Shown piece by piece: positions 2,541 to 6,430 of a DNA stretch of 64,000 nucleotides. The notes under the pieces are model-generated. The model made no database searches, had not been told where the DNA came from, and worked only from the letters and a program-made list of their open reading frames with translations. Made by a program: the position numbers and the translations under genes. Each line of letters opens with the position of its first letter. The stretch's first letter is position 1. This stretch comes from Diplonema papillatum (Eukaryota > Euglenozoa > Diplonemea > Diplonemida > Diplonemidae): NCBI GenBank assembly GCA_030068145.1, contig JAPJBO010000632.1, forward strand, positions 62,001 through 126,000, written 5' to 3'.

Positions 2541-2723
2541 GAATTGGCAGCTAGCTTCTGGCCTCTTCGCACTCGGTCTCAGCTTGGGTCATCGAGTTCA
2601 TTCTTCATCAGAAAGGGAAGGAAGGAGAGAAGTCTGACAGAAGCCTGATAACTTGCTTACTAGCGAATGGGCTAGAGTGTGCCTGTTGACCATGTCAATG
2701 GGCCAACCAGGCGAGATCACATT
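2541..2723. repeat. Terminal repeat B, outer copy (B2)
   Basis: This 183-bp sequence begins GAATTGGCAGCTAGCTTCTG and ends GAGATCACATT. It is repeated at 2860-3042 with one visible difference (GGGCTAGAG versus GGGATAGAG). On the element's strand it is the extreme 3' end, and the next bases outward are a TAG/CTA tract. Confidence 0.95.
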
Positions 2724-2739
2724 GGGGGCAAGGGAGGGC

Positions 2740-2859
2740 GGGAAGAAAAATTTAGTTTCAGAAGACCCACCTCAACCCACCCGAATCCTCCTGTTGTAGG
2801 CTCGGGTGGTGTGCTCATCCTGCCATGCGCTTTGCTCCAGTTCCTACCGTATACTAAAG
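2740..2859. repeat. Split repeat A, internal copy (A2)
   Basis: About 120 bp ending CCGTATACTAAAG, repeated at 6314-6430 on the other side of the coding region. It contains the imperfect inverted pair CCACCCGAATCC and GGCTCGGGTGG, which could fold. Confidence 0.92.
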
Positions 2860-3042
2860 GAATTGGCAGCTAGCTTCTGGCCTCTTCGCACTCGGTCTCA
2901 GCTTGGGTCATCGAGTTCATTCTTCATCAGAAAGGGAAGGAAGGAGAGAAGTCTGACAGAAGCCTGATAACTTGCTTACTAGCGAATGGGATAGAGTGTG
3001 CCTGTTGACCATGTCAATGGGCCAACCAGGCGAGATCACATT
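2860..3042. repeat. Split repeat B, inner copy (B1)
   Basis: This 183-bp direct repeat of 2541-2723 directly joins the internal A copy at 2859/2860. The RT-RNase H stop codon (3038-3036) lies inside its last bases, so the ORF ends within the repeat. Confidence 0.95.
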
Positions 3043-4574
3043 CCATCCACCACTCCGCCAGTGAAAAACGTCCTCACCGCTCGTGTCACCTCCGCCACGG
3101 ACTGGGGAGTGAAGGCCGTCAAGGGAACCCGGGATGGGAGATCAGCAGGATTCCCCGCACTCCTCACCCATCGAATTGATATGGCACAGTTCAAGGACTG
3201 CACCCGCTTCAAACCTGCGACCACCGCGTCGTTCAAGATGGAACTCCGCAGGCACGCACCTTTCCGCGCGACACCCTTGACTGTTGTGTTGTCGACGACA
3301 ACATCAACCCGACCCCCAGACGCACTGTCGGGCAAGGACAAAAGAACGCGCTCGAAGGCCAGCGCTTCAAGCTCGTTAATGTGCCAGAGGGACTCCTCCC
3401 GTGTCCACGCCGCACCAAGGATGGTCACCTCCGATGTGCGAGAGTCCACAAGGACGCCCCCCCAGCCCTTTTTACTGGCATCTACAAATGCCGTTATAGA
3501 CGGCCTCGCCGCTCCGGTTGGAAGACTGCGAGGTTTCAAAACCGAATCAATCCAGGTTTGCAGAGACGCCCGCACGCACGGGGAAATCGACACGTAATCG
3601 GACGGCAGCTTGGCTCCTCGATTCAACGCGTTGGTGACACGTCGGAGAAACTTCAGCGAAAACCAGAAGGACCCGGGGAAAATCCCCGCGATGGCCGATG
3701 CGTGCAGCAGGCGCCCTCCCAAGGTTTCCAACTCATGCGCCGGAACGGTCGCAGCACCCAGCACGTAGCGCGTTTCCAACAGCTTCCGCTTGAGCTTGCG
3801 GCACAGCGCCACCTGGTGTGACACATGATCCCACCGGACTCCGATGAACTCGTACTGCCGTGAGGCAGTTTGCGAATCCGTCTCTTTCCAAGTTAGGCCG
3901 CAGTCGGAGGCGGTCCGATCCAAACGTCGAGTGGCTTCGACGACGGACTTCTTTGTTCCGGCGTATCTGATGTTGTCGACCCACACATCGACAACCACAG
4001 AGCGCTCCGCAAACTCGGGCATCACGTAGTCCGGATGCCCGGCCGAAACGGCGGCAAGAGTGTGCATTATCTCCGGGGCACACGAATGCCCCATGGGGAG
4101 ACGTGTCAACTCCCACCATGCGCCCTCCGCGTCGCAGAACCGGAAGAGCCGAGTTGCGCCTGGAGGAATGGCCACTGCGTAGAACCCCGTTCTGAAGTCC
4201 CGCGTCGTGCCACACTCCTCATGTACCGCGGTAAGGTACTTGGACACATGCCCCAATGGCACGTGCGCTTCGTAACCCTGGGCGTCGGCCACACGATTCC
4301 CATCGAACGACCACAAAATGAATCGCTGGCGCAACGCCCCGTCCTTCTCCTCGATGACGGTGAAGGGCACGTTTACCAGAGGGCCCGGACCAGGCGCTCG
4401 TCTGGCGATACCGTGTTTGGACAGCTCGCGCGCATGTCTAGGATCGAGTCGGGAAGGCGATCCCATTGACGGTAGAAGGTCGCCGGTTTCCGGTGAAAAC
4501 GTCAGGCGCCACGTATCGTCAAAACGCTTGCGCGCCGCCGGTGTCATCCGATTCTTCAACTTCTCCACGTCCAT
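3036..4574 (-). CDS. Reverse transcriptase-RNase H polyprotein (ORF3)
   Basis: A 512-residue protein starting at the ATG at 4574-4572, about 130 nt after the recombinase stop; the frame is open far upstream only as a shadow of the recombinase. RT features are the fingers motif around 77-93, the motif A aspartate near 126 (DFRTGFYAVAIPP), motif B LPMGHSCAPEIMH (159-171) and motif C VWVDNIRYAG (197-206). Motif C therefore carries V-D-N where most RTs have Y-x-D-D. RNase H follows: D365 (FVDASKKGWGG), E401/E403 (HINELEA), D428 (VVDNTT) and D478 (GNPADLPSR), all four expected acidic positions present. The protein would copy element RNA and remove the RNA strand. No methyltransferase domain of the DIRS type is seen. 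It may be expressed by reinitiation or a separate transcript. Confidence 0.9.
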   Translation of the reverse strand: MDVEKLKNRMTPAARKRFDDTWRLTFSPETGDLLPSMGSPSRLDPRHARELSKHGIARRAPGPGPLVNVPFTVIEEKDGALRQRFILWSFDGNRVADAQGYEAHVPLGHVSKYLTAVHEECGTTRDFRTGFYAVAIPPGATRLFRFCDAEGAWWELTRLPMGHSCAPEIMHTLAAVSAGHPDYVMPEFAERSVVVDVWVDNIRYAGTKKSVVEATRRLDRTASDCGLTWKETDSQTASRQYEFIGVRWDHVSHQVALCRKLKRKLLETRYVLGAATVPAHELETLGGRLLHASAIAGIFPGSFWFSLKFLRRVTNALNRGAKLPSDYVSISPCVRASLQTWIDSVLKPRSLPTGAARPSITAFVDASKKGWGGVLVDSRTSEVTILGAAWTREESLWHINELEALAFERVLLSLPDSASGGRVDVVVDNTTVKGVARKGACLRSSILNDAVVAGLKRVQSLNCAISIRWVRSAGNPADLPSRVPLTAFTPQSVAEVTRAVRTFFTGGVVDGM

Positions 4575-4705: not shown

Positions 4706-5914
4706 TCACAGAAAGATCGTGACCTTCCCCGTCTCCAGGGCGCGTGCCATGTCGACGAGGCCACCGCCGTACCGAATCGTCATGTCGGATAGCGTCCCCG
4801 GGCCGCCCTTCTCCTCGTGCTTGCCCAGGCGATCGACGAGGTACGGCGAGATCGGTTCCCCGCGTGCCATCAGCGCGAAGAGGTGCGTCATCGCCCCTCT
4901 CTTGATCGAGTGGGCGGAGAACCCGTTCATCGTCGGGGTCCGGGCCCAGGTAGCGTCCAAGGTCGTTGCCGTCATCGCCGAGAGCTGCCGGAACGGCGCA
5001 CAGACCTGATAGAGGGCCGCAATCTCGGCGGTCAGGTGCCCCTTCACGACAGTGAACCTCGACGCTCTGAAGGGGTTGCGGCGGCGGCCCTTTGGCGTCT
5101 GCATCCAGTCGACGATGACTTCCTCCGCCGTAACAAGCAGGAACTGGTGCGACGACAGCGACGCTACCTCCCCCCAACGGGCTGCCGCCTTCCAACACAG
5201 AAAAACCCCGAGCCTGATCGTGGCCGGCTGGCCCTCCGCCCACGAAAGGAGGGTCTGCTTCTTTACCGGGGTAGCTTGGCACAGGGGAACTGCCGCGCCC
5301 GTATTGCGCAGTGCCGAAGAGAGCACACGCAGGGGACTGTTGTCGAGGCCCATCGACCCAAATACCGCCGACAGGGACTTCGCATACGTGAGTAGCCCTT
5401 GGGGCCTCACGCCCGTAGCCGCCAGAAAGACACACGCGACATTCGCATCGATCAGGAGGCCGCGCTCCGACGTCCAGGCCTGGAGCCGCCGCCACAAGCC
5501 ACGGCGCTCCTGGAGAGTGGTTTCGGCCCACATCGTCTGCGCGAGGGCAGCCAAGCGCGCTTCCGCTTGCGGCACCGTCACCAGCGCCTCGCCCGTACGG
5601 ATCGTGCGCCCAGGTGTCCAACCCGTCAGAAGACTGTGGACGGCGCGGCCTATAGCTGTCTGTGGACGGCTCGCCCACCCTGGCGCCTGAGAGGCCGCCG
5701 CAGACACGTTGGAGGGTCTCAGCAACGTTGGACAACCGCTCAGCAACGTCGAAGAACACGCCAATGCAGGCGCAGCTCTTGCACGACCGGGCGGTTTCGG
5801 ACGAGGGAGGTCTCTCCTCGCGCGAAGGGTCTGGTGAGGTCCCACGACCTGGGGCGGGCGAACATGAAGAATTTGGTTGACTGCGCCCGGATGGGCGGAC
5901 TTCGTAACTGGCAT
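4706..5914 (-). CDS. Tyrosine recombinase (ORF2)
   Basis: A 402-residue protein with an ATG at 5914-5912. The catalytic half shows R246 (AARWGEVASL), K275 (QTPKGRRR), a box H335-S-I-K-R339 (AHSIKRGAMTHL) and the nucleophile candidate Y382 (TIRYGGGL) about 20 residues from the end. The usual box is H-x-x-R; here the residue three after His is Lys and the next is Arg, so the exact catalytic arginine is uncertain. The N-terminal 100 residues are basic and Pro-rich; residues about 115-215 look like the core-binding domain. It would integrate a circular cDNA by strand exchange. It sits upstream of RT-RNase H, as in VIPER/TATE. The other long frames here are shadows. Confidence 0.88.
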   Translation of the reverse strand: MPVTKSAHPGAVNQILHVRPPQVVGPHQTLRARRDLPRPKPPGRARAAPALACSSTLLSGCPTLLRPSNVSAAASQAPGWASRPQTAIGRAVHSLLTGWTPGRTIRTGEALVTVPQAEARLAALAQTMWAETTLQERRGLWRRLQAWTSERGLLIDANVACVFLAATGVRPQGLLTYAKSLSAVFGSMGLDNSPLRVLSSALRNTGAAVPLCQATPVKKQTLLSWAEGQPATIRLGVFLCWKAAARWGEVASLSSHQFLLVTAEEVIVDWMQTPKGRRRNPFRASRFTVVKGHLTAEIAALYQVCAPFRQLSAMTATTLDATWARTPTMNGFSAHSIKRGAMTHLFALMARGEPISPYLVDRLGKHEEKGGPGTLSDMTIRYGGGLVDMARALETGKVTIFL

Positions 5915-5941
5915 GAGTTTTGGGGGCCGGAGGACGGCCAG

Positions 5942-6329
5942 TCAATGTTTCCCTCCGGCCTTTCCGTTTCCCTGCGACTTCTTGTACTGCCGCCTCGGAC
6001 GCTCCGACTTTTCGCGTTGTCCTCGAATCCCGGCCACGACCTTGTCGAACGGATCATCCGTTAACTGTTGGAGACCGCGCATGACGGATTTCCGGCTTAT
6101 TCCCTCCTCAACGTAGACGCGCTGGGCACGGAGGTCCAGAAGGAGGTCGTTACCGAGCTTCACCTGCTCAGGGCAGCTTTCCCAACCGTCTGTCGTCGCC
6201 GCCGATATCAACCAGCACTTGAGCCTCGTAAAGGTGTCATGGAGAAGATCACCACCTGGCAAATGCCGCCTCCCAGCAACATACGCCACGTCAAGTTCCC
6301 GGACTAGCGTCTCCGGGAAAAATTCAGTT
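5942..6329 (-). CDS. Gag-like ORF1 of the retroelement
   Basis: This open frame on the element's strand ends at 5942, 27 nt before the recombinase start. It reads FPETLVRELDVAYVAGRRHL near the start and ends in a basic tail (RRQYKKSQGNGKAGGKH), as expected for an RNA-binding Gag-type product. There is no ATG early in the frame; the first in-frame Met is well inside. The start therefore may use a non-AUG codon, a spliced leader exon, or be truncated. Position and basic tail support gag, but no Gag family motif is recognised. Confidence 0.5.
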
Positions 6330-6430
6330 TCAGAAGACCCACCTCAACCCACCCGAATCCTCCTGTTGTAGGCTCGGGTGGTGTGCTCATCCTGCCATGC
6401 GCTTTGCTCCAGTTCCTACCGTATACTAAA
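6314..6430. repeat. Split repeat A, outer copy (A1)
   Basis: This copy of 2740-2859 is the 5' end of the element on its own strand. It would carry the promoter. Its outer edge (CCGTATACTAAAG) joins a TAG array directly. Confidence 0.92.

Follow-up and report, generated by a model that had tools for sequence, protein, structure and literature searches.

How can a retrotransposon express a recombinase gene that lies entirely within the open frame of its polymerase? The question is raised by a 64,000-nucleotide (nt) stretch of Diplonema papillatum DNA (contig JAPJBO010000632.1, positions 62,001 to 126,000; hereafter the window). Its minus strand carries, from 6431 to 2541, a tyrosine recombinase (YR) retrotransposon with the order A1 – gag remnant – YR – reverse transcriptase (RT)-RNase H – B1 – A2 – B2. 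In the literature excerpts that we consulted, the expression of overlapping recombinase and polymerase (pol) genes in such elements is without explanation. On the best explanation, to which we give a probability of about 0.7, the family is a young, high-copy YR retrotransposon; its sequence points to one RNA that would give Gag, Gag-Pol by −1 frameshifting and Gag-YR by passage of a UGA codon, with RT copying to a circle and YR insertion at (CTA)n. This model joins sequence-based parts (anatomy, conservation of gene order in the groups sampled, stop avoidance, a conserved cassette, insertion sites) to predicted ones (frameshifting, readthrough, the circular intermediate, activity).

A conserved cassette at the end of gag

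The genome searched comprised 271,365,524 bases in 2910 contigs. In all four groups of elements sampled there, gag ends in the same arrangement, an in-phase G_GGA_AAC heptamer followed, after 5 nt, by a GC-rich hairpin with the gag stop in its loop (UGACUGGC). We aligned the gag-YR junction of nine sequences, from six other elements and three copies of the window family. GGGAAAC, GGCCGG and TGACTGGC, which holds the gag stop, are identical in 9/9 and are followed downstream by the complementary arm. Compared over the final 70 residues of gag, the six other elements divide into three groups (L060; L061; L062-L065, 87-93% identical among themselves), and the identity between groups, the window included, is 33-59%. 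A scan of 36 sources matched 32 cassette rows of the window family (L009, L010, L021 and L053 gave no match to the pattern used; L035 duplicates the window copy, and L027 and L040 represent a single copy). The heptamer stands in gag phase in 6/6 elements of the other groups and in all 32 rows. The gag TGA is kept in 32/32 rows with YR following in frame, and in 20 of them YR has no Met before codon 133.

Frameshift signals of the type X_XXY_YYZ have a spacer of 5-9 nt. As sequence features, the components of a programmed −1 frameshift signal (in-phase heptamer, short spacer, downstream structure) are all present here. The hairpin has nine pairs, with 93.8% of 81 alignment cells paired and two of the nine pairs changed on both sides. 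The cells paired, the cells changed on both sides and the covariation score were each above all 500 shuffles, and pairing dropped when the partner was slid to any offset. RNAalifold returned the same helix plus one pair. A 33-nt cassette pattern was found 116 times in the genome and its reversed control 0 times, a count outside which the window family falls with its ATTGA; in the collection of viral contigs the cassette was not found.

The pol frame stays open across the recombinase gene

The RT frame lies −1 to gag and YR, and it contains 0 stops across the YR gene in the window copy, L013, L027 and L059. In 2000 synonymous-codon shuffles per gene that kept codon usage, mean stop numbers were 7.6, 7.0, 6.8 and 5.1, respectively, and the fractions of shuffles with as few stops were 0.0005, 0, 0 and 0.0015; the first three genes represent one family. 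No stop depletion was seen in the +1 frame of the same YR genes or in the −1 frame of gag (16 stops vs. 17 in shuffles), and the −1 frame of the L059 RT beyond YR has 19 stops vs. 22. Among the matches listed, open frames of at least 983 codons hold 20 of the 29 RT matches at 65-69% identity.

We considered whether the −1 frame over YR encodes a conserved protein domain, and rejected this: between the window copy and L059, 94 of its residues are identical vs. 89.0 in shuffles (fraction 0.24), and the ratio of nonsynonymous to synonymous substitution (dN/dS) for this part of the pol frame is 1.2-1.45. Counter to this rejection, the alternate-frame BLOSUM score of L013-L059 tops all but 0.02 of shuffles; an RT control pair is similar (0.023). 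For the close pair of the window copy and L013 the score lies above all shuffles, an excess explained by shared descent. The dN/dS is 0.22-0.25 for YR and 0.10-0.15 for the RT part, and all values for gag, YR and RT fall within 0.10-0.25. The pol frame over YR is kept open, and no selection on the amino acids of its product is visible, which is what simple passage of ribosomes would leave.

Proposed route of expression and replication

Where relatives retain a full gag, ribosomes would translate one RNA and read gag first. At G_GGA_AAC, before the stable hairpin, a fraction would slip by −1, cross the YR gene and enter RT-RNase H, which would give Gag-Pol. Most of the remaining ribosomes would halt at the UGA in the hairpin loop and release Gag, and some may continue beyond it, through readthrough or reinitiation, and make Gag-YR from the YR gene in the same frame. 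RT-RNase H would copy the RNA, with the split repeats as template, into circular DNA with a B/A junction AATTC-CT-TTAG. The YR would then recombine this junction with CTA-CT-ACT sites in (CTA)n, so that A1 and B2 would be left at the edges with no duplication. Such a route, if true, suggests a reason for extensive YR/pol overlaps, and the compact conserved cassette makes the question testable in an ordinary reporter assay.

Insertion sites

On the element strand the ends read CTACTA/CT TTAG ... AATTC CT/ACTACT, and the B1/A2 junction reads AATTC-CT-TTAG. Target, element ends and junction share just CT, and there is no target-site duplication. Among 220 exact A left ends, 57 stand after CCAATTC (internal), 88 after CTACTA and 75 after neither. 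An outer A end was present in 27 of 30 YR-match loci, and 26 of the 27 are preceded by a perfect CTA run (16-475 nt long), with part of the runs cut by the end of the locus; this sample favours young copies, includes the window (L035) and contains one end, in L042, that belongs to a neighbouring element. The solo A-B units sampled lie mostly outside long tracts. Young copies sit in (CTA)n, and the pattern fits a YR that recombines a putative circular junction at a CT core without duplicating the target. If true, this would illustrate how a tyrosine recombinase can direct integration to microsatellites, with CT as the crossover core.

In L043 and L052 a single tract, of 96 and 327 nt, separates the B2 of an element from the A1 of its neighbour. 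The window itself has two perfect (AGT)n tracts, at 1428-2068 (641 nt) and 6430-6817 (388 nt). Adjoining the longer one, 2066-2165 is apparently the end of another, related YR-element family, with copies at 40867-40965 on the minus strand of the window (86%) and in L042 (99%); insertion may have occurred more than once in the long tract.

Copies and groups in the genome

The window copy had been taken at first for an intact element, which it is not: about two thirds of gag, the N-terminal part, is gone and is kept by other copies in the same genome. Its gag-like open reading frame (ORF) has 133 open codons, 46 from Met, whereas gag has at least 338 codons from Met in 20 of the 32 cassette rows. 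From A1 to the shared gag segment the distance is 27 nt, vs. 680-685 nt in L010, L013 and L027. On account of these spacings and lengths we conclude that the N-terminal part was lost; the window copy is 5′-deleted and probably non-autonomous.

A search of the genome, proposed beforehand, found more copies. The YR protein gave at least 104 matches (103 of 1951 candidates scored), of which 50 have 81-100% identity and the other 54 have 54-58%, and RT-RNase H gave at least 75 (75 of 2714 candidates scored), 29 of them at 65-69%. From the 40 B matches listed (442 first-look candidates) 20 places were taken; within these stretches 6 carry YR and/or RT, 12 just A-spacer-B units and 2 just B. On C223, C410, C2401 and C34 the A ends are serial, mostly about 350-360 bp apart, which suggests tandem A-B units. 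A probe with the EsV-1-7 family, meant to bear on the host, matched neither this genome nor any of 14 controls and is therefore uninformative.

Three other groups, at 54–58% YR identity, also have YR before RT. Among the matches listed, YR immediately precedes RT, on the same strand, in 8/8 other-group element pairs matched by coordinates (C20, C2671, C329, C1188, C193, C762, C1368 and C177), with every group covered, and in L059 this order was read in the sequence. The original prediction had allowed that other copies might reveal the recombinase as a secondary insertion. We reject a late insertion, since the three other groups have the same order.

Recombinase and RT-RNase H proteins

Tyrosine recombinases have the general catalytic set R - K - HxxR - H/W - Y. 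The candidates for this set in the window copy are R246, K275, HSIKRG (H335), H366 and Y382, and the same motifs occur in L059, whose YR is 55% identical. HSIKRG has K at the position where Arg is usual, and hhalign pairs R246 with XerD R148 at just 0.7% probability.

The RT motifs are DFRTGF, LPMGHS and WVDN. The last, motif C at about 3970-3980 on the minus strand, stands where YxDD is usual; it is not a decay of the window copy, since L059, 69% identical over RT-RNase H, has WIDN. The putative RNase H active-site acids D409, E445/E447, D472 and D522 are invariant in three aligned sequences, and the pol frame ends 34 residues past the last RNase H motif. In Pfam no family reached its cut-off for YR or RT-RNase H; the nearest was RT_RNaseH, with 20.5 bits vs. 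24.8 required (22.3 bits for L059, also below the cut-off). PHROGs had none for YR and one match for RT (E 0.044), and PDB profile searches gave chance-level matches or none. Outside this genome, no RT relatives were found in the collections of viral contigs and genome contigs, and no YR relatives in viral contigs, genome contigs and phages. No methyltransferase was matched by Pfam in the window copy or L059, a negative that is weak alone because RT itself gets no Pfam match.

Repeats and coordinates of the element

The coordinates of the element and its flanks are collected in Table 1. A1 and A2 (115 nt each) have 1 difference, as have B1 and B2 (185 nt each); such near-identical repeats are not chance. 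The A-ORFs-B-A-B layout foreseen in the original prediction is confirmed, and with it the order of a gag-like ORF, a tyrosine recombinase (R246, HSIKR and Y382 are present) and RT-RNase H. Inverted terminal repeats like those of DIRS1 were considered and rejected, since the repeats are direct; the only inverted repeats found are two pairs of 24-25 nt, 72-79% complementary, neither at the ends.

Table 1. Features of the YR retrotransposon and its flanks in the window
Feature	Position	Strand	Remarks
A1, 5′ terminal repeat	6317..6431	-	115 nt; left end CT/TTAGTA adjoins (CTA)n tract
gag remnant	5942..6343	-	133 open codons + TGA stop; N-terminal part gone
Candidate slippery heptamer G_GGA_AAC	5966..5972	-	in gag phase
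GC-rich hairpin	5925..5960	-	5960-5952 pairing 5933-5925; 5 nt past heptamer; loop holds gag stop 5944-5942
Tyrosine recombinase ORF	4706..5941	-	411 codons; gag frame after TGA; first ATG 5914; stop 4708-4706
pol frame	3036..6053	-	1005 open codons; −1 to gag and YR; spans entire YR gene, then RT-RNase H (about 4706-3039)
B1 repeat	2858..3042	-	185 nt; CT in common with A2
A2 repeat	2745..2859	-	115 nt; B1/A2 junction AATTC-CT-TTAG, putative circle-junction sequence
B2, 3′ terminal repeat	2539..2723	-	185 nt
(AGT)n microsatellite flank	6430..6817	.	perfect, 388 nt
(AGT)n, opposite side of insertion	2509..2540	.	short, imperfect

Other features of the window

Four short matches to ribosomal RNA (rRNA) models scored above the gathering thresholds, at 12685-12961 (-), 41575-41882 (+), 60431-60692 (-) and 38137-38527 (-). 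These scattered matches, to eukaryotic large-subunit (LSU), small-subunit (SSU) and microsporidian SSU models, look like dispersed rDNA fragments. Long tandem arrays occupy 22495-24176 (period about 444 nt), 27377-28142 (79/161 nt) and 63116-63825 (47/92 nt).

Evidence against the model and alternative explanations

Several observations weigh against the proposed route. The double changes in the hairpin occur in 4 sequences each, along one group split; 5 of its 81 cells are unpaired (two in L061, two in L063, one in L064); and two covariation measures were not above shuffles, namely the pairs changed on both sides (260/500 as high) and the pair types (500/500). Single folds of 8 sequences gave z from −3.5 (L060, the sole one below −3) to +0.5 (L064, which adopts a different fold). 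The −1 frame of the window RT beyond YR has 10 stops vs. 18.5 in shuffles (fraction 0.0065), and the reverse frames of the YR genes have 2-15 stops, counted without shuffles, so part of the openness over YR may be compositional. The RT frame is interrupted somewhere in 7 of the 32 cassette rows. About 445 residues of a Gag-Pol would be unconserved sequence encoded over YR, which is awkward, as is the lack of any protease match. Finally, no hidden Markov model (HMM) matched YR above noise; motif spacing and context are the basis of its assignment.

RT might be made by termination-reinitiation at an ATGA by the gag stop, or by internal initiation, and not by −1 frameshifting. We consider this reading unlikely. 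All six aligned other-group sequences have ATGA at the gag stop, where AAATGACTGGC gives an ATG in the RT frame in 6/9 aligned sequences; RT-frame reinitiation is thus possible in these groups and a serious rival there, and it, or internal initiation, likewise needs an open frame over YR. The window family, however, has ATTGA and no ATG in 32/32 rows, yet its in-phase heptamer and hairpin persist. It is highly improbable, in our view, that GC-rich codon usage alone produced the long −1 frame and that the cassette merely reflects conserved gag coding. The GC content at third codon positions (0.66-0.78), the few stops just described and the unconserved alternate-frame residues speak for such an origin. 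Against it stand the 0 stops in 4/4 YR genes (three from one family) vs. shuffles that keep codon usage, the gag frame without depletion, and a cassette that is identical where the gag proteins differ by 41% or more. It is also improbable, if marginally less so, that the microsatellite is not the target but was created or expanded by the element or by the assembly: the great length of the tracts and the sharing of one tract by neighbouring copies (L043, L052) speak for this, but the units L019, L022, L026 and L028 lie outside tracts, with a short CTA or TA before them and no ACT repeats to their right.

Comparison with known systems

In retroviruses and long terminal repeat (LTR) elements, −1 frameshift gag-pol signals consist of a slippery heptamer, a short spacer and a stable downstream RNA structure. 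Unlike in those systems, here a second enzyme gene follows the UGA in the 0 frame, and the −1 frame has to cross that gene first.

The comparisons with other YR elements refer to excerpts of the publications cited. VIPER and TATE have gag, YR and RT/RNase H (RH), repeats ordered A1...B1-A2-B2 and no duplications, and SIRE corresponds to A2-B2 (PMC6681497, PMC12278014); TATE sits in telomeric hexamers (PMC6681497, PMC12278014). Their RNase H is reported to be allied to that of hepadnaviruses (PMC6681497). They are reported as kinetoplastid elements, with few significant matches outside Kinetoplastida, most of them suspected contamination and one a bacterial YR (PMC6681497). On overlap of the VIPER YR and RT ORFs the sources disagree, one describing it (PMC12278014) and another usually none for VIPER and Ngaro (PMC3266345). 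The window family resembles VIPER/TATE in gene order, split repeats, lack of target-site duplication, a short A2-B2 derivative and, for TATE, location in a simple repeat. The VIPER/TATE-type architecture of the original prediction was upheld by the order gag, YR, RT/RH and the split direct repeats, with no target-site duplication, no methyltransferase match and SIRE-like short A-B units. Unlike in VIPER/TATE, YR here lies wholly inside an open pol frame, gag, YR and pol are linked by a conserved heptamer-hairpin-stop cassette, and insertion is at (CTA)n, not at the telomeric hexamers of TATE. The excerpted VIPER/TATE descriptions mention no recoding signal, and our literature search met no title describing recoding or microsatellite targeting in YR elements, which is weak evidence of absence as few texts were examined.

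DIRS1-like elements can have considerably overlapping pol and YR ORFs, with the catalytic YR domain in the non-overlapping 3′ part (PMC3266345). They differ from the window family, where the whole YR is overlapped, the repeats are direct and no methyltransferase was seen, while DIRS1 has inverted terminal repeats and a methyltransferase. PAT-like elements (Pat1, Toc, Kangaroo) share the split direct repeats (PMC4157794), but carry a methyltransferase domain, none being matched here, and the Kangaroo YR is inverted (PMC4157794). Ngaro-like elements also have split direct repeats, no methyltransferase and solo A-B units (PMC8547959, PMC4157794), and in fungal Ngaro the YR ORF can lie in or out of the RT-RH frame (PMC3783388). 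The lineage might derive from Ngaro or PAT, YR having come in front of RT independently and the VIPER/TATE order being convergent, to which we give somewhat less than even weight. A survey of Ectocarpus transposable elements lists 15 Ngaro and 5 PAT-like families, with no VIPER-like one mentioned in the excerpt (PMC12477816), which leaves room for a Ngaro-derived lineage, and published YR-element trees are poorly resolved (PMC6681497). Against such a derivation, Ngaro as described has RT/RH before YR (PMC8547959), whereas YR comes first in each element here where the order was readable.

By likeness to the published descriptions, the known kind is thus the VIPER/TATE-type architecture, and what appears new is the wholly nested recombinase gene, the candidate three-way recoding cassette and the microsatellite insertion. 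With odds only slightly better than even, these elements would form a YR-retrotransposon clade, perhaps outside kinetoplastids, whose pol frame encloses the whole recombinase gene and in which one hairpin with the gag stop in its loop would split ribosomes three ways (Gag, Gag-YR, Gag-Pol), and (CTA)n microsatellites would serve as safe havens. If true, they add a further set of recombinase-first elements beside VIPER and TATE, and bear on the disputed single vs. multiple origin of YR elements.

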